Assembly: GCF_006715095.1 (NCBI RefSeq)
Contig: NZ_VFMO01000001.1
Span: 682,001 to 746,000, forward strand
Direction: 5' to 3'
Source: Yimella lutea
GTDB lineage: Bacteria > Actinomycetota > Actinomycetes > Actinomycetales > Dermatophilaceae
DNA length: 64,000 nucleotides
Position 1 is the stretch's first letter. Each line of letters opens with the position of its first letter. The position numbers and the translations under genes were made by a program. Below the pieces are notes generated by a model. It had not been told where the DNA came from and searched no databases. It worked only from the letters and a program-made list of their open reading frames with translations. Of this stretch, positions 48,619 to 59,123 are shown piece after piece.

Positions 48619-49290
48619 ATGCTCTACCTCACGACGCAGCTGTTGGTGTCGCCGTTGGCCCGGGCCTGGTTCCGGCCCGACGTCGAGGGCGCCGACAACG
48701 TGCCGCGCACCGGTGGGGTGTTGCTCGCGTCCAATCACCTGTCGTTCATCGACAGCTTCGCGATCCCGCTGGTGGCGCCCCGGAAGGTGGTGTTCCTCGC
48801 CAAGGCCGAGTACTTCACCGGCACCGGCGTGAAGGGTGCGGCCAGCCGAGCGTGGTTCACCTCGATGGGCATGGTGCCGGTCGAGCGTGACGACTCGAAG
48901 GCCGCTGCGCAGTCGCTCGACATCGCGCTCGACGTCCTTCGTCGTGGGGAAGTGTTCGGCATCTATCCCGAGGGCACCCGCTCGCGCGACGGGCGGCTCT
49001 ACCGCGGACACGTCGGCGTCGCGCATCTGGCGCTCACCGCGAAGGTGCCGGTCGTCCCGGTCGGCCTGATCGGCACACAGCACGTCCAACCGATCGGCAC
49101 CAACAAGGTGCGGCGCGAGAAGTTCACCGTGAAGTTCGGGGAGCCGATCGACTTCTCCGGACGCTTGGACGGCGTCGCCCAGGGCAAGGCCCGGCGCCTG
49201 GCGACCGACGAGATCATGGACGCGATCGCCGCGCTCAGCGGTCAGGAGCGCGCCGGCGTCTACAACGAGCGCTCGGCTCCCACGACCTGA
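48619..49290 (+). CDS. plsC: 1-acyl-sn-glycerol-3-phosphate acyltransferase
   Basis: 223 residues. Acylates lysophosphatidate in phospholipid synthesis. Motif I NHLSFID (NHxxxxD, about 36-42) and motif III EGTRSRDG (about 118-125) are intact. Starts 2 bases after the dnaX stop, so translation is probably coupled. The product has an N-terminal hydrophobic segment and is a peripheral or monotopic membrane enzyme. Convergent with the DUF5063 gene. Confidence 0.93.
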   Translation: MLYLTTQLLVSPLARAWFRPDVEGADNVPRTGGVLLASNHLSFIDSFAIPLVAPRKVVFLAKAEYFTGTGVKGAASRAWFTSMGMVPVERDDSKAAAQSLDIALDVLRRGEVFGIYPEGTRSRDGRLYRGHVGVAHLALTAKVPVVPVGLIGTQHVQPIGTNKVRREKFTVKFGEPIDFSGRLDGVAQGKARRLATDEIMDAIAALSGQERAGVYNERSAPTT

Positions 49291-49294
49291 TCGA

Positions 49295-49855
49295 TCAGGG
49301 GTGCAGGGCGTCGAACTCGGCCTCGGCGGCAGCGTCGTCGTCGACGTCGAGGCGCAGGTGGCGCAGGATCGTCAGCAGCACCCGCAAGCACGACGCGGCG
49401 CGTACGCCCCACTCCGACAGGTAGCTGAACTGCCACCACCACAGCGCCTCGACGGTGCGACCGGCGCGGTAGTGGACGAGTCCGTGCTCGAGTGCCTGGA
49501 CGATGTCGGTGAGGTCGTCGGAGACGGCGCCGCGCGCGGGTTCGACGGAGGTGACCGGGTCGACCAGGTCGGTGTAGTCGTCGATGCCCTCGAAGAGGTT
49601 GGCGAGGTTCTGGCGCAATGGGTCGAGGTCGGCCTCAGCGCCGGGATCGGATTCGAAGCGTTCTGCGGGCACGACGTCCTGCACCGCGCCGAGTCGGGCG
49701 CCGCTCATCTGCAACTGGGACAGCAGGAGCAGCAACAGCGGGATCGCTGTCTCGGGGGCGCCGCCGGCGGCGATCTCGCGTACGGCGGTGGTGAAGGTCT
49801 CGGCGTCGCGGGCGGTCTCGGCGGCCAGGCCGCCCAGGTCGGAGATCTCAGACAT
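49295..49855 (-). CDS. DUF5063 domain protein
   Basis: 186-residue, mostly helical, acidic protein. The C-terminal half ([17 protein letters not shown]) is the conserved part of this actinobacterial family, often beside recR. Overlaps the 3' end of recR by 8 bases, so it is cotranscribed and probably coupled. No catalytic residues evident; role unknown. Confidence 0.85.
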
Positions 49856-50450
49856 TCGTCAGCACCTTTCGTCCTTCGATGGCCCGGCCGAGGGTGACTT
49901 CGTCGGCGTACTCCAGGTCGCCGCCGACCGGCAGGCCTGAGGCGAGACGCGAAATCCGGACGCCCATCGGACGCATCGAGCGCACCAGGTAGGTGGCGGT
50001 CGCTTCGCCGATGTGGTTGGGGTTGGTCGCGATCAACACTTCCTCGATGGGTTCTTCACCCAAGCGGCGGAAAAGTTCGGTGATGCGCAGGTCGTCCGGG
50101 CCGATGCCCGACATGGGATCGATCGCACCGCCGAGCACGTGGTAGACGCCCTTGAACTCACGCGCCCGCTCCATGGCCATGACGTCCTTGGGTTCCTCGA
50201 CCACGCACAACTGGGTACGGTCGCGTTTTTCGTCGGCGCAGATGCGGCATCGATCGGACTCGGCCACGTTGAAACACGTGTCGCAGAAGCGAACTCGCGC
50301 CTTGACCGTCTGCAGCACCTCGACCAAACGGTTCACGTCGGCGCTGTCGGCCTGGAGCAGATGGAACGCGATGCGCTGCGCGGACTTGGGCCCGATGCCG
50401 GGAAGCCGGCCGAGCTCGTCGATCAGGTCTTGGACCACACCTTCGTACAC
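49848..50450 (-). CDS. recR: Recombination protein RecR
   Basis: 200 residues. Works with RecF/RecO in gap repair. N-terminal helix-hairpin-helix ([17 protein letters not shown]), zinc finger ([16 protein letters not shown], about 57-72), and a TOPRIM domain ([14 protein letters not shown]) are intact. The partner DUF5063 follows. In the same direction as the upstream PAP2 gene. Confidence 0.97.
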
Positions 50451-50502
50451 AACCCTGAGCGTACGTCGTCAGGCCGACACCGCCGGTTGCCGCGCGCGAG
50501 GA

Positions 50503-51348
50503 TCAGTTCGCGGTCTGCGGGCGCAGTTCGTCGCGGGTGGGTGCGGGGTGGAAGGCGCCCTGCCCGAACAGCAGTCGTTGGACTGCGAAGGCCGCTGCCA
50601 GCACGGCCGCACCGGCGACGCCATCGAGGATGAAGTGGTTGGCCGTGCCGACCACGACCACGAAGGTCATCATCGGATACACGATGCCGAGGACGCGTAG
50701 CCACGGTCGCCGCGCGATCGAGAAGACAGACAGGCCCACCCAGAGTGCCCACGCGCAATGCAGGCTCGGCATCGCGGCGAACTGGTTGGTGGAACTGGCG
50801 ACCGTCGGGTCCGACCAGGAACCCCAGGCGCCGTAGGTCACCAGCGTGTCGGTGAATCCGGCCCCCGGCAGCAACCGCGGGGGAGCCATCGGCAACAGGT
50901 AGAAACCGACCAGGCCGAGGACCGTGGTGCCGACCAGGACGGTGCGCGCCGCCCGGTAGTAGCGCTTGTGGACGCGGAAGATCCAGATGAGCGTCAGCGC
51001 GGTCACCGGCAGATGCAAGTAGGTGTAGTAGGCGTTGAAGCCGTGCGCGAGTATCGATTGCCCGGCGACGAACCGGTTGACCGAGAGCTCGAGGTCACCG
51101 GTCAGCTGTTGGGTCAGATCGAGCACCTGGTGGCCGCGGTTGTACGCCTCGTCCTGACGGGCGGGCACCAGGTTACGCAGCCGTTCGTAGACGACGTTCA
51201 GGACGACGATGATCGAGATCTCCACCCACCATCTCGGGGAGCGGTGGGTGCGGAGCGTGACAGGGAGGAGCGCCCGACGCCGCCTGACCCCCCTGGTCGC
51301 GACTGTCGTGACAGTTCCCCCAACGCTGTTCACGCTGCTTGACACCAC
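50503..51348 (-). CDS. PAP2-superfamily membrane phosphatase
   Basis: 281 residues from GTG 51348 (ribosome site GGAG, 8-base spacing). About six hydrophobic helices. The acid-phosphatase-type motifs are partly visible: RNLVPARQDEAYNRG (with Arg/Lys), PSLHCAWA (the conserved His), and a later H in NHFILDGVAGA. Predicted to act on lipid phosphates or undecaprenyl pyrophosphate at the outer face of the membrane, but may also be an inositol-phosphorylceramide-synthase-like transferase. Divergent from lysC across 241 bases with no other gene. Confidence 0.85.
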   Translation of the reverse strand: MVSSSVNSVGGTVTTVATRGVRRRRALLPVTLRTHRSPRWWVEISIIVVLNVVYERLRNLVPARQDEAYNRGHQVLDLTQQLTGDLELSVNRFVAGQSILAHGFNAYYTYLHLPVTALTLIWIFRVHKRYYRAARTVLVGTTVLGLVGFYLLPMAPPRLLPGAGFTDTLVTYGAWGSWSDPTVASSTNQFAAMPSLHCAWALWVGLSVFSIARRPWLRVLGIVYPMMTFVVVVGTANHFILDGVAGAAVLAAAFAVQRLLFGQGAFHPAPTRDELRPQTAN

Positions 51349-51589
51349 GTAAGTGTCTCCTTCTCGATCCTTGTTTGCCAATTGTTTGCCCGCCGGCGGT
51401 TGCCTACGACGACGCCGGACCGGCACGGCGGGTTGTTCTTCGATCCGCGATCGGGTGAGGGCAAGGCGTGGACGACGAGTCCGAATCGCGGTCTGTGCAG
51501 GGGGACGCCACAAGCCGTCGTTACGATTGTCCGGGCTCCTTCGAGCTCGCGAGCAAACGCACACGCACAGCAACCCAAGGAGATCCGCC

Positions 51590-53922
<2,333 letters not shown>

Positions 53923-53928
53923 GGCCTG

Positions 53929-54987
53929 ATGAACGGTCGCCGACCTGTTCTCGCCGTCGTGGGTGCGACGGGGGTGGTCGGACAGACCCTGGTCTCGATG
54001 CTGCCCACCCGTCCCGACGTCTGGGGTGAGGTGCGGCTGCTCGCGTCCGGACACTCCCAGGGAGCGACGATGCAGGCGCTCGGCCAGGAACTGCCTGTCC
54101 AGGAGTTGGCGGAGGCGAACTTCGACGACGTCGACGTTTGCATCCTCAGCGTGCCGATCGATGTCGCCCGCACCTGGGCGCCGATCATCGCGCGAGCCGG
54201 CACCGTCGTCATCGACAACTCCGGGGCCCACACGGTCAACCCGACCGTGCCGTTGGTGGTGCCGGAGATCAATCCGGATGCAGCCCGCGGCGAGGGCGGG
54301 CGGATCATCGCCAGTCCCGGTGGCACGACCTTGCTGATGGCCAACACGCTCGCGACTTTGCACGAGGTCTGGCATCTGCGCGAGGTCGTCGCCGCCACGT
54401 ACCAGGCCGTGTCCGACGCCGGTGTCCGCGGCGTCCATCGCCTGTACGACGAGACCGCCGAGCTTGCCGGGAACCGAGGCGTCGGTCAGACTCCGGGCGA
54501 TGTGCGTCGCTTCGTGTCCGACATCGACGGGCGCTCACCGTTCCCGGCGCCGGTGGCGTTCAACGTGATTCCGTGGGTCGGTGGCCCGGGCGACGGACGT
54601 TGGTCGAGTACCGAGCTGCGTGCCCGCGAAGAGGTGCGCGCCATCCTGGGTGAACCCGATCTGCGGATGGCGACCACCTGCGTCCAGGTGCCGGTCACGA
54701 CCGCCCACTCGGCCTCGCTGCATCTGAGCTTCGAGCGACGACTCACGCGGGCCGACGCCGTCCGCGCCCTGACCGAAAGATCCAACTCCGTTGTCGTCCT
54801 GGACGATCCGTTGCGGCAGGAGTGGCCGACGCCCGTCGACGTCGTCGGCACGGACCCGGTGTTCGTCGGACGGGTCAGGCAGCCCGGTGACTTCCCGCGC
54901 GCCCTCGAACTCTTCGTCTGCGTCGACAACCTGCGCAAGGGGTCTGCGCTCAACATGATCCAACTCGCGGAGCTCGTTGCGAGCTGA
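53929..54987 (+). CDS. Asd-like protein lacking catalytic residues (putative pseudoenzyme)
   Basis: 352 residues, colinear with the preceding Asd. Retains the NADP loop GATGVVG (about 12-18), TYQAVS, the His (H260) and the end DNLRKGSALNMIQLAELV. Lost: Cys (C133 becomes G132; NPNCTT becomes SPGGTT), R103 (T102) and R254 (Q253). The codons at 54313-54330 read AGTCCCGGTGGCACGACC, so this is not a frame error. It cannot perform the thioester chemistry. Starts 6 bases after asd, so it is in the same operon. Possibly a regulatory or scaffold partner that heterodimerises with Asd; this is inference. Full length and in frame, so not a decayed gene. Confidence 0.92.
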   Translation: MNGRRPVLAVVGATGVVGQTLVSMLPTRPDVWGEVRLLASGHSQGATMQALGQELPVQELAEANFDDVDVCILSVPIDVARTWAPIIARAGTVVIDNSGAHTVNPTVPLVVPEINPDAARGEGGRIIASPGGTTLLMANTLATLHEVWHLREVVAATYQAVSDAGVRGVHRLYDETAELAGNRGVGQTPGDVRRFVSDIDGRSPFPAPVAFNVIPWVGGPGDGRWSSTELRAREEVRAILGEPDLRMATTCVQVPVTTAHSASLHLSFERRLTRADAVRALTERSNSVVVLDDPLRQEWPTPVDVVGTDPVFVGRVRQPGDFPRALELFVCVDNLRKGSALNMIQLAELVAS

Positions 54988-55086
54988 ACGGCGAACGTCC
55001 GGATTTGGTCACGATTGCGCTGCGTAACGTCCCAAATGCCCGCATGTCATTACATTGCTGTGTTCATGTGACTTAGGGTGTCCGCC

Positions 55087-55893
55087 ATGACGCAGCAGAA
55101 TGCCGCCGAGGGGCAGCCCGCGGATCTGAGCAAAGCGGGGCGTGACGGGCAGGCCGGTCGGCCGTTGGTCGTCCTGGAGAACGTGAACAAGCACTTCGGT
55201 GATCTGCACGTGTTGCGGGACATCGACCTGACCGTTCACCAGGGTGAGGTCGTCGTCGTCCTTGGCCCTTCCGGGTCGGGTAAGTCGACGCTGTGTCGCA
55301 CGATCAACCGCCTGGAGACCTACGAGAGCGGGTCGATCACGATCGACGGCATTCCGCTGCCGGAAGAAGGCGCGGGCCTGGCCAGGCTTCGTGCGGACGT
55401 CGGCATGGTCTTCCAGTCGTTCAACCTGTTCTCGCACAAGACGATCCTGCAGAACGTCACGCTCGGGCCGATCAAGGTGCGCAAGATGAAGGCCAAGGAG
55501 GCCGAGTCGCGCGCGATGGAACTGCTGAAGCGCGTGGGTGTCGACCACCAGGCGAACAAGTATCCGGCGCAGTTGTCCGGTGGACAGCAGCAGCGCGTGG
55601 CGATCGCGCGGTCGCTCGCGATGGAGCCCAAGGTGATGCTCTTCGACGAGCCGACCTCGGCACTCGACCCCGAGATGATCAACGAGGTGCTCGACGTCAT
55701 GGGGCAACTCGCCAAGGAGGGCATGACGATGATCGTCGTGACCCACGAGATGGGCTTCGCGCGCCGTGCCGCCGACCGCGTCGTCTTCATGGCCGACGGC
55801 CAGATCCTCGAGCAGGAGACGCCCGAGGAGTTCTTCAACAACCCCAAGACCGACCGCGCCAAGGACTTCCTGTCCAAGATCCTGGCTCACTGA
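55087..55893 (+). CDS. gluA: Glutamate/polar amino-acid ABC transporter ATP-binding protein
   Basis: 268 residues from ATG 55087 (GTG 55078 would add three residues). Walker [11 protein letters not shown]-loop Q-S-F-N-L-F-S-H, signature [10 protein letters not shown], Walker [15 protein letters not shown], and H-loop VTHEMGFA are all present. This is the polar amino-acid type with glutamate as the likely substrate from gene order A-B-C-D. First gene of the operon; 54988-55086 upstream is promoter space. Confidence 0.94.
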
Positions 55894-55948
55894 GCACGCT
55901 CACCCACAGTCCCGGGATGACAACCATCCCGTCAGCAGGAGGAGAATC

Positions 55949-56770
55949 ATGAAGTTCCGTTCCGCTTCCGCGGTCGCCATGATGGCCGCAGCATCCCTGA
56001 CCCTCGCCGCCTGCGGCGGAGACGACTCGTCCGGCTCGGGGGAGAAGATCAAGATCGGTGTGAAGTTCGACCAGCCTGGTCTGGGCTTCAAGGAGGGCAC
56101 CAAGAACTCCGGCTTCGACGTCGCCGTCGCCAAGTACGTCGCCGGCAAGATGGGCTTCAAGGAAGACCAGATCCAGTTCGTCGAGTCGCCCTCGAAGCAG
56201 CGCGAGAAGATGCTGGCGGCCGGCACCGTCAAGATGATCTTCGCGACCTACTCGATCACCGACAAGCGCAAGGCGCAGGTCTCCTTCGGCGGCCCGTACT
56301 TCGTCGCCGGCCAGTCCGTGTTGGTGAAGTCCGACAGTGACATCAACAGCGTCGACGCGCTCAAGGGCAAGCGGGTCTGCTCGGTCACCGGTTCGACCTC
56401 GGTCGACAACCTGAAGAAGAAGCAGCCGGCTCTGGTGCCGCAGAAGTACGACACCTACTCCGCCTGCGCCACCGCGCTGAAGTCGGGCGCTGTCGACGCG
56501 ATGACCACGGACGACGCGATCCTCGCCGGGTACTCCAACCAGGCGGCGTACAAGGGTGCCTTCAAGCTCGTCGGTGGCACCTTCTCCACCGAGAAGTACG
56601 GCGTCGGCCTGAAGAAGGGCGACAAGGACACCTGCACCAAGGTCAACTCCGCGATCCAGGAAATGATCAAGGACGGGTCGTGGGAGAAGGCGCTGAAGGA
56701 GAACCTGGGCGCCGACTACAAGTACAACACCACCGAGAACCCGCCGAAGTCCCTCGAGACCTGCGCGTGA
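55949..56770 (+). CDS. gluB: Glutamate-binding lipoprotein
   Basis: 273 residues from ATG 55949 (AGGAGGAG). Signal peptide with lipobox LAAC, Cys at 22. Type II solute-binding fold (KIKIGVKFDQPGLGFKEG, then the R-K-M domain crossing). Captures glutamate outside the membrane. Follows gluA by 55 bases, before the permeases gluC and gluD. Confidence 0.93.
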   Translation: MKFRSASAVAMMAAASLTLAACGGDDSSGSGEKIKIGVKFDQPGLGFKEGTKNSGFDVAVAKYVAGKMGFKEDQIQFVESPSKQREKMLAAGTVKMIFATYSITDKRKAQVSFGGPYFVAGQSVLVKSDSDINSVDALKGKRVCSVTGSTSVDNLKKKQPALVPQKYDTYSACATALKSGAVDAMTTDDAILAGYSNQAAYKGAFKLVGGTFSTEKYGVGLKKGDKDTCTKVNSAIQEMIKDGSWEKALKENLGADYKYNTTENPPKSLETCA

Positions 56771-56840
56771 TCGGTGCCGCGTCGGTGTCGGTCATGCCGG
56801 CACCGACGCGGTTTCCCTTTCGTGACTTCGAAAGGCAGTG

Positions 56841-57521
56841 ATGTCACAACTCATCAACGAGTACCACCTGCTGTCGGCTTTCTGGATGACCATCAAGCTG
56901 ACGGTCCTGGCAGCGATCGGCAGCCTCGTCCTGGGCACGATCATCGCGGTGCTGCGCATGTCGCCGGTGCCGATGTTGCGCTTCCTGGGCACCTCCTACG
57001 TCAACGTCTTCCGCAACCTGCCGCTGACGTTGATCATCCTGTCGATGAACCTGGTCCTGTGGGCGCAGCTGAGCATCAGCCTCGCCGACAGCAAGGACCC
57101 CGCATACCTCGACATCAACAACTTCCGGTTGGCCGTGCTCGGTCTGGTGATCTACCACGCCGCGTATGTCTGTGAGTCGCTGCGCAGTGGCGTCAACACG
57201 ATCCCGCTCGGGCAGGCCGAGGCCGCCCGCTCCATCGGGCTCACCTTCGGTCAGTCGCTGAAGGAGGTCGTGCTGCCGCAGGCGTTCCGCGGCGCGGTGG
57301 TGCCGCTGGGCAACACCCTGATCGCGCTCACCAAGAACACGACGATCGCGGTCGTCATCGGTGTGGCAGAGATGGCAGCCCTGCTGGCCGCGGTCACCGA
57401 GAACGACCCCGGCCTGCTGAACCAGGCGTTCCTGGCCACGGCCGGACTGTTCGTCCTGCTGACCCTCCCCACCGGCGTCCTCATCGGGCACCTCGGTAAG
57501 AAGCTGGCGGTGAAGCGATGA
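56841..57521 (+). CDS. gluC: Glutamate ABC transporter permease GluC
   Basis: 226 residues from ATG 56841 (GTG 56838 is one codon upstream). About five helices; HAAYVCESLRSGVNTIPLGQ includes the EAA-loop-type coupling segment followed by EAARSIGLTFGQSL. Pairs with GluD, whose start overlaps its stop by 4 bases. Confidence 0.93.
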   Translation: MSQLINEYHLLSAFWMTIKLTVLAAIGSLVLGTIIAVLRMSPVPMLRFLGTSYVNVFRNLPLTLIILSMNLVLWAQLSISLADSKDPAYLDINNFRLAVLGLVIYHAAYVCESLRSGVNTIPLGQAEAARSIGLTFGQSLKEVVLPQAFRGAVVPLGNTLIALTKNTTIAVVIGVAEMAALLAAVTENDPGLLNQAFLATAGLFVLLTLPTGVLIGHLGKKLAVKR

Positions 57522-58387
57522 GCGCCTCGGTTCTGTTCGATGCACCCGGCCCGAAGGCTCGCCGCCGGCACATGATGCTCACCGTCGTCGGTGTGCTGTT
57601 GTTCTTGGTCGGAATGTTCCTGGTCTACAAGCGGCTGGACGACAAGGGCCAGTTCGCGCCGGCGCTGTGGAAGCCGCTGACCACCGGCACCGTCTGGCAG
57701 TCCCTGCTCGAGGGCCTGGTCGGCACGCTCAAGGCGGCCGCGATCGCGATCGTGATCGCCGGTGTCCTGGGTGTGCTCTTCGCCCTCGGCCGGATGTCGG
57801 AGATCGCGCCGCTGCGCTGGATCTGCTCGGTGTTCGTGGAGATCTTCCGCGCAGTCCCGGTGCTGTTGATGATGCTGTTCAGCTACGGCTACCTGTCCAC
57901 CAGTGGTGCCGTGGACGACGAACTGGCCCCGTTGTACGCTACCGTCACCGGTCTGGTGCTCTACAACTCCTCGGTGGTCGCCGAGGTCATCCGCTCCGGT
58001 GTCAACCAGTTGCCCAACGGGCAACGGGAGGCCGGTCTGTCGATCGGTCTGCGACCCAGCCAGACCCTGCGGATGGTTCAGCTGCCGCAGGCGATCACCG
58101 CGATGTTGCCGGCTTTGATCAGCCAGTTGGTCGTCGTGCTGAAGGACACCGCGCTCGGTTACAACGTGCTCTACAGCGAACTGCTGCGCACCGGCCAGGG
58201 CATCGGATCCAACAACGCGAATATCGTGCAGATGATGTTCGTGCTCGGTGTGATCTACATCCTGATCAACTACTCGCTGTCCAAGCTGGCCGAGTTCGTC
58301 GAGCGCCGGTTGAAGAACCGCGGTCGCGGATCGAGGAAGCAGCAGGTCACCGGCGGACCGGCGGTCGCTGCCGACGCAGCCGCGTAG
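57518..58387 (+). CDS. gluD: Glutamate ABC transporter permease GluD
   Basis: 289 residues. N-terminal about 85 residues with a first hydrophobic helix, then the permease core; coupling segment SSVVAEVIRSGVNQLPNGQR then EAGLSIGLRPSQTLR. C-terminal basic tail. Start ATG overlaps the gluC stop (ATGA). Operon ends at the hairpin 58401-58442. Confidence 0.93.
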   Translation: MSASVLFDAPGPKARRRHMMLTVVGVLLFLVGMFLVYKRLDDKGQFAPALWKPLTTGTVWQSLLEGLVGTLKAAAIAIVIAGVLGVLFALGRMSEIAPLRWICSVFVEIFRAVPVLLMMLFSYGYLSTSGAVDDELAPLYATVTGLVLYNSSVVAEVIRSGVNQLPNGQREAGLSIGLRPSQTLRMVQLPQAITAMLPALISQLVVVLKDTALGYNVLYSELLRTGQGIGSNNANIVQMMFVLGVIYILINYSLSKLAEFVERRLKNRGRGSRKQQVTGGPAVAADAAA

Positions 58388-58400
58388 TCCCGTTCTGCAG

Positions 58401-58446
58401 AAAGTCCGCAGCCTCGTCCCTTTGGGCGGGGCTGCGGACTTTCCTC
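58401..58446 (+). terminator. Terminator of the gluABCD operon
   Basis: AAAGTCCGCAGCC (58401-58413) pairs with GGCTGCGGACTTT (58430-58442), loop TCGTCCCTTTGGGCGG. CCTCATG follows. Confidence 0.85.
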
Positions 58447-58463
58447 ATGTCTACGATCGAACG

Positions 58464-59123
58464 GTGATTTCGGATGTGAGTTTCGACGGTTTCCCGGTGG
58501 CAGCGCTCGACTTCTACGACGACCTCGAGCAGGACAACAGCAAGGCGTTCTGGGACGCGCACCGCTCGACCTACGAGGAGTCGGTGCGCGCGCCGTTCGA
58601 GGCTCTCGCAGCGGACCTGGAGGACGAGTTCGGGTCGGCGAAGATCTTCCGCCCGAACCGCGACATCCGGTTCAGCAAGGACAAGACCCCGTACAAGACG
58701 CATCAGGGGATGTACGTGTCCGCTGCCGAGGCCACCGGGTGGTACGTGCAGTTGTCCGCCGCCGGTGTCATGGTCGGCCTCGGGTTCTACAACGCCCCGC
58801 CGGACCGACTCGCCCTGTTGCGCAAGGTGATCGACAGCCCGAGCGGCGCGACCCTCGAGCGCATGATCGGTGATCTGACGGCGCAGGGCTGGGCGCTCGG
58901 CGGTGACACCGTCAAGACCGCGCCGCGCGGTTACAGCGCAGACAACCCGCGCATCGAACTGCTGCGACACAGGACGATGTCGCTGTCGAAGCAGTACGGC
59001 TTCGAGCCGTTCGTGCACACCCCGGAGGTGTTGACGCGGATCCGGGACGACTGGCGCACCGGCCGACCCCTTGTCGACTGGCTCGCCACTCATCTCAGCG
59101 ACGATGGGACGGGTCTTCGTTGA
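58464..59123 (+). CDS. DUF2461 family protein
   Basis: 219 residues from GTG 58464. Landmarks of the family: FYDDLEQDNSKAFWDAHR (about 14-31) and RDIRFSKDKTPYKTHQGMY (about 70-90). No catalytic motif known to me; a conserved protein found in many bacteria. The stop codon lies in a REP-like element (59121 onward). Confidence 0.88.
   Translation: MISDVSFDGFPVAALDFYDDLEQDNSKAFWDAHRSTYEESVRAPFEALAADLEDEFGSAKIFRPNRDIRFSKDKTPYKTHQGMYVSAAEATGWYVQLSAAGVMVGLGFYNAPPDRLALLRKVIDSPSGATLERMIGDLTAQGWALGGDTVKTAPRGYSADNPRIELLRHRTMSLSKQYGFEPFVHTPEVLTRIRDDWRTGRPLVDWLATHLSDDGTGLR

Follow-up and report, generated by a model that had tools for sequence, protein, structure and literature searches.

The window, by which we mean the whole 64,000-nucleotide stretch of Yimella lutea DNA that was analysed, carries an aspartokinase gene followed by two genes for proteins of the aspartate-semialdehyde dehydrogenase (ASADH) family. 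Throughout, type B denotes the kind of ASADH gene (ASD) that follows lysC (asd2 in the window), and type A denotes the second kind (asd1). Residue roles were transferred to Asd1 numbering through alignment and motifs, and the features that bear on the argument are as follows.

51590..52873, + strand: lysC, aspartokinase, head to tail with asd1 and asd2
52870..53922, + strand: asd1, canonical type-A ASADH, with NPNCTT, R103, Q160, K232, R254 and H261 all present
53923..53928, + strand: 6-base spacer between asd1 and asd2, which share a reading frame
53929..54987, + strand: asd2, 352 amino acids from an ATG start, very probably a type-B pseudoenzyme of ASADH fold
54232..54234, + strand: Thr102 where Asd1 has R103, the phosphate-binding Arg; correspondence by alignment, role from PMC3276109
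54313..54330, + strand: SPGGTT (Asd2 residues 129-134) in place of the nucleophile motif NPNCTT, by alignment with Asd1 (Cys133)
54319-54321, + strand: Gly in place of Asn (Asn132 of Asd1), by alignment
54322-54324, + strand: Gly132 in place of the catalytic Cys, by alignment
54619..54621, + strand: Arg231 where Asd1 has K232, the phosphate-binding Lys, by alignment and motif; role from PMC3276109
54685..54687, + strand: Gln253 where Asd1 has R254, the Arg for the substrate carboxylate; role from PMC3276109

The stop codon of lysC overlaps the start codon of asd1 by 4 bases, and the spacing of asd1 and asd2 suggests that the two belong to one operon. A simple scan of 51200-55300 found no sigma-70-like site at all and no terminator-like site between lysC, asd1 and asd2. 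The single terminator-like site in that interval lies upstream of lysC (shuffled sequence gave a mean of 1.3 such sites), and terminator control was discarded as a candidate. Riboswitch control was likewise set aside, there being zero Rfam matches at gathering thresholds in 49000-58500.

Asd1 and Asd2 are 38% identical over 363 columns, and in both the NAD-binding and dimerisation Pfam domains score above their cut-offs, which places Asd2 within the ASADH fold. Consistent with this, an AF2 model of Asd2 (pLDDT 87.9, pTM 0.86) found only ASADHs among its first five PDB matches, with TM-scores of 0.85-0.91. The sequence-only reading of this DNA, which had proposed a full-length, in-frame Asd homologue with a dimer-type C-terminus 6 bases past asd1, is borne out on these points. 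The three substitutions that it listed (Cys to Gly, R103 to Thr, R254 to Gln) also hold in the alignment, although the list missed two more, Gly at Asn132 and Arg at Lys232; it was correct, too, that the NADP loop (GATGVVG), the Gln (Q160) and the His (H261) are kept, as is E230 (Asd1 numbering). According to Viola and others (2010, PMC3276109), the Cys of ASADH is the nucleophile and a His the acid-base catalyst, Arg101 and Lys243 of the Vibrio enzyme lie in the phosphate site, Glu240 and Arg267 are substrate ligands, and the C136S change leaves the Haemophilus enzyme almost inactive. Asd2 thus has the active-site Glu, Gln and His of an ASADH and lacks the Cys nucleophile, the phosphate-site Arg and Lys and the carboxylate Arg. 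Asd1, judging from its complete residue set, would be active.

We looked for ASD genes in 149 genomes of the window's family and sorted these genomes, by our own reading of the match table, on match number and best E-value. Both types were assigned to 84 genomes, type A alone to 48 (one of which, G089, has three ASD matches), type B alone to 15, and neither to 2, both of them incomplete. When the active site was read in all 99 family type-B genes, the Cys was absent from 81. The loss in Asd2 is therefore no chance event, given also that 35 of the 120 protein matches listed (the window's own P0001 included) have no Cys at the aligned place. Among the 84 two-match genomes, type B is Cys-less in 78; three more keep the Cys and have other residues changed (G006, G042 and G078), and three have a complete type B (G041, G086 and G106, the last two with 5% contamination). 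Where there is one match, by contrast, 12 of 15 type-B genes have all seven residues checked, and a second ASD gene may have been missed in the three Cys-less cases (G030, 84% complete; G092, 94% complete in about 410 contigs; G117, 83% complete). An active-type paralogue accompanies nearly every Cys-less gene: asd1 adjoins asd2 in the window, and a second ASD match is present in 78 of the 81 family genomes whose type B lacks the Cys. Direct reading of the type-A gene covered 33 of the 84 two-match genomes, the remainder being represented by the match count; the full residue set was present in 54 of 54 type-A rows. In genus g42, two genes (L034 and L042) keep the Cys, as NPNCAT and NPACAT, beside other changed active-site residues and a second ASD match.

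Loss of catalytic residues could mean that Asd2 is functionless and slowly decaying, with whatever constraint remains coming from folding or from the operon alone. In favor of this, dead type B evolves faster than the active form: taking lysC as the clock, it runs at 2.3-3.7 times the lysC rate, compared with 0.9 times for active one-copy type B and 1.5 times for active two-copy type B (the latter from 5 genus pairs). Decay would also fit the absence of type B from 48 family genomes and the existence of intermediates that keep the Cys with changed ligands. However, Nei-Gojobori dN/dS was 0.05-0.33 for the Cys-less pairs computed, with the upper bootstrap bound under 0.36 for 13 of 13, and within the window's genus asd2 (0.16-0.18) is close to asd1 (0.14-0.17). 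The genes are also open, although some 19 nonsense changes would be expected at dS 0.8 under neutrality with all base changes equally likely; once rows shorter than 300 aa had been set aside, every one of them at a contig end, the length was 349-392 aa in 64 of 64 Cys-less ORFs. Moreover, dead type B persists through many genera. We consider decay unlikely. Selection on dead type B is weaker than that on the active enzyme but real, and in family genomes with a canonical type A the lysC-linked type B has mostly lost its nucleophile while remaining intact, adjacent to lysC and under purifying selection. The earlier view of Asd2 as a pseudoenzyme and not a decaying gene has thus stood up well, the loss of the Cys recurring far beyond one strain with dN/dS below 1, and we are highly confident that Asd2 is a conserved pseudoenzyme.

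The rate increase is unevenly spread along the protein. Between residues 228 and 262, at the active site, the ratio of type-B to lysC distance rises most, from 0.26 in active one-copy genes to 1.75-3.49 in four dead groups, and the rises are smallest for residues 161-203 (1.78 active, 2.03-3.56 dead) and 263-300 (2.12 active, 2.43-4.26 dead). As support for a partner role this pattern is weak evidence, because in the active enzyme, too, the latter two regions vary more than any other. At equal total identity, residues 161-200 and 263-300 had seemed more conserved in dead than in active type B, as if constraint had been relocated to a new surface. That idea was rejected: with lysC as the clock neither stretch changes more slowly in the dead groups, and the parts at the active site and cofactor change faster. 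A correlation between the shifts of two dead groups (r 0.68, 32 windows) was discounted, as both share one baseline.

Outside the family, we examined 68 type-B genes from searches of the order and class, a non-random sample made up of best hits and then of deliberately chosen low scorers. One-match genomes have all seven residues in 35 of 36 cases, the exception being G158 (91% complete, 6% contamination). In two-match genomes the Cys is kept in 29 of 32 and missing from 3 (G164, G501 and G509), and in 14 of 32 one or more of the seven are absent. A second copy therefore does not force the loss. Genus g145 supplies 20 of these 32 genomes: 9 are complete and 11 have at least one residue changed, 2 of them being Cys-less; loss there is apparently recent and repeated. 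The altered lysC-linked genes of g145 (L142, L150, L162-L164, L167-L171 and L173, low scorers picked deliberately) include GPDCVT with Lys changed to Ala, and SPGGTT and GPGALT among those without Cys. Eight g145 genomes were read as carrying a canonical type A; elsewhere outside the family the second copy stands for a match count. Fragments at contig ends were omitted (L172, L174-L177 and L180 of type B; L178 and L179 of type A), and NPNCTT could be seen in L172, L174 and L180 among them. In genomes of family f6 (G153, G171, G187 and others) ASD matches are very weak (E about 1e-4 to 1e-10); these organisms probably use another type of ASADH.

The sequence-only reading took asd2 for a tandem duplicate that had lost its function. 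On this point the survey disagrees, since Asd2 is the lysC-linked type found across the class, is complete as an enzyme in genomes with no other ASD, and differs in type from asd1. In the type-A tree, the 21 rows of tandem-arrangement type A group together (support 91/75), as do the 17 rows of family type A located elsewhere (100/100) and the 8 rows of g145 type A (100/100), and the three groups fall apart from one another. The simplest reading is that type B was resident and that type A was gained more than once. On the type-B tree of 146 genomes, which was built by a quick method and has several long branches and unsure placements, the state of the Cys requires 7 changes, 3 of them forced by starred branches, so that supported branches account for no fewer than three changes. 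That these changes were losses follows from the Cys of the type-A outgroup and not from the count of changes. When the link between Cys loss and a second copy was put to a phylogenetic pairs test, the association was nonsignificant (8 independent pairs, median p 1).

Gene order across the genomes read is constant. Directly upstream of type B lies either lysC (146 of 167) or an asd1 that is itself preceded by lysC (21 of 167). Of the order lysC-asd-asd2 noticed earlier, the link to lysC is therefore general, whereas the intervening asd1 is confined to those 21. This constancy raises the possibility that the partner of the dead ASADH is LysC and not Asd1, Asd2 being a scaffold or regulator docked on aspartokinase. 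Direct lysC-B pairs are tightly packed, with a 4-base overlap in 83 of 146 and a gap of at most 60 bases in 136 of 146, and in Cys-less family genomes type A sits between lysC and type B in 21 and elsewhere in 57. However, the order lysC-B is also the rule where type B is a complete enzyme, and the adjacency may be plain positional inheritance; we regard LysC as sole partner as rather improbable. Among the Asd2-matching loci longer than 6.5 kb, recR was seen in 35 of 89 and a nearby small gene in 39 of 89, counts that include type-A-only loci and come from short flanks. Directly 3′ of asd2, positions 55078-58387 of the window hold what look like ABC transporter genes (an ATPase, a binding protein and two permeases). 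Close relatives of these lie about 2 kb past asd2 in L002, with weaker matches in L001, L048 and L115; beyond these four loci the flanks are too short to judge.

The dead lineages differ in what they have kept. The place of the Cys in 69 Cys-less rows from 64 genomes is taken by Ala (42), Gly (14), Pro (9), Ser (3) or Asp (1), and H261 is retained in 68 of 69 rows and E230 in all 69. In one lineage of 25 rows, which we call NPGA (L035-L037, L045, L046, L055, L056, L058, L059 and kin), Ala replaces Cys and Gly replaces Asn throughout, Q160, K232, R254, H261 and E230 are kept in 25 of 25 and R103 in 24 of 25, and the Arg of the NADP 2′-phosphate loop has become Glu or Asp in 24 of 25. In the 14 rows of the window's clade, R103, K232 and R254 are gone from 14 of 14, with Arg for Lys in 4, whereas the clade keeps the loop Arg in 11 of 14, the other 3, the window included, having His. 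A third lineage, PGPV (10 rows; L065-L072, L119 and L120), has the nucleotide loop GATGRFA instead of GATGAVG and Ile or Val for the Gln, and has probably lost NADP binding along with catalysis.

One might suppose from the NPGA lineage, with its nearly intact ligand set around an Ala, that Asd2 binds aspartyl phosphate or aspartate semialdehyde as a holder, sensor or channel and does not reduce it. The losses in the window's clade exclude the same mode of ligand binding there, and we think such a binding role very unlikely. Still less probable, to the point that we give it little weight, is that Asd2 is an enzyme of a new kind, using a different nucleophile or a different substrate. The window protein does keep GATGVVG, the Gln and the His, and 2 of the 69 Cys-less rows (L009 and L115) have a Cys one place early, at the Asn position (SPCATT and MPCGPA). 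Against this, no common nucleophile has replaced the Cys, congeners of L009 lack the shifted Cys, the remaining ligands vary by lineage and the PGPV loop is altered, and the Haemophilus serine mutant mentioned above was virtually inactive. Because the dead lineages keep different ligand sets, a shared new reaction or a shared ligand is unlikely, and the earlier suggestion that Asd2 binds another substrate is disfavored insofar as it implies one substrate common to all. What the dead lineages have in common is the fold, the lysC neighbor and, as noted, a second ASD match. We infer that the common ground left to them is a protein-protein role.

Our preferred, if tentative, reading, to which we assign somewhat less than an even chance, is that Asd2 is a noncatalytic partner of Asd1 and/or LysC, helpful but not obligatory; in this respect the earlier idea that it regulates Asd1 or LysC is plausible. 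Asd2 would fold as an ASADH, assemble with active Asd1 through its retained dimerisation half and/or sit on LysC, and as a subunit would tune or stabilize the conversion of aspartyl phosphate. ASADH dimers are described in PMC3276109 as having an inter-subunit hydrogen-bond path and alternating-site behavior, so that a dead subunit would have something to act on. Several observations count against such a partner: dead type B evolves faster than lysC, most two-match genomes outside the family keep the Cys, and Y159 of Asd1, in our reading the tyrosine of the inter-subunit relay, gives way to Phe, Leu or Met in 8 of the 14 window-clade rows and in 18 of 25 NPGA rows. Nor would the partner be obligatory, because type A occurs without type B in 48 of the 147 ASD-bearing family genomes, one of which, G053 (genus g2; L129), has no type-B match when the other eight sampled g2 species carry dead type B; any need of type A for type B is at least not universal. 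A similar absence was seen in L130 (G089, genus g13), whose sampled congeners have type B. An Asd1-Asd2 fusion, considered as a stand-in for a dimer model, was abandoned, as row identities put nearly all single type-B rows on its first half.

A more general proposal, and one that we consider unlikely though less so than decay, is that, once a second ASADH had been acquired, the lysC-linked enzyme already present repeatedly and independently became a dedicated noncatalytic subunit of the aspartokinase-ASADH step. If true, an unrecognized control point would head the lysine, threonine and methionine pathway in many actinobacteria. There is precedent for dead paralogues that activate a live enzyme as heteromers (PMC5201418 and PMC3663545). 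Like Asd2, the trypanosome AdoMetDC prozyme and deoxyhypusine synthase paralogue are dead proteins kept alongside a live enzyme of the same fold; unlike them, for which an activating heteromer is reported, the Asd2 case is known from sequence, and many genomes lack the dead protein. Vibrio natriegens also has two ASD genes, Asd1 and Asd2, but both are active by assay (PMC12925634).

Cys-less ASADH paralogues are themselves already known. Usg (E. coli b2319; structure 2hjs of the Pseudomonas USG-1 homologue; NF005957/PRK08040) is one such, and in our alignment E. coli Usg has VPDSLT, i.e., Ser, opposite NPNCTT of Asd1; a paper on the usg operon calls its product a putative ASADH (PMC6358828). 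Asd2 is not Usg, however: it scores 130.6 bits against an NF005957 cut-off of 273, Usg is 29% identical to Asd2 and 34% to Asd1, and its neighborhood is pdxB-usg-truA. In the open-licence PMC literature we found no description of a lysC-linked, repeatedly inactivated and retained ASADH. Since the loss of catalysis recurs at a single place in the operon and intermediate states exist, the retention of dead enzymes can be studied by comparison.

With bacterial ASADH (NF011456/PRK14874; TIGR01296, asd_B), asd2 shares the fold, both Pfam domains and the lysC neighborhood, and differs in lacking the nucleophile, the phosphate ligands and the carboxylate Arg. Its score lies above the NF011456 cut-off (309.5 versus 223) and below that of TIGR01296 (272.1 versus 324.2), and the NF011456 equivalog cut-off is also passed by 4 of 5 further Cys-less members scanned. 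In relatives the lysC neighbor is named aspartate-semialdehyde dehydrogenase (P0010 and P0015, for example). A type-B lysC neighbor of the Cys-less kind is predicted to be unable to use the known ASADH mechanism, and to take the lysC-linked type B for the enzyme would be wrong in the 81 of 99 family genomes read in which its Cys is missing.
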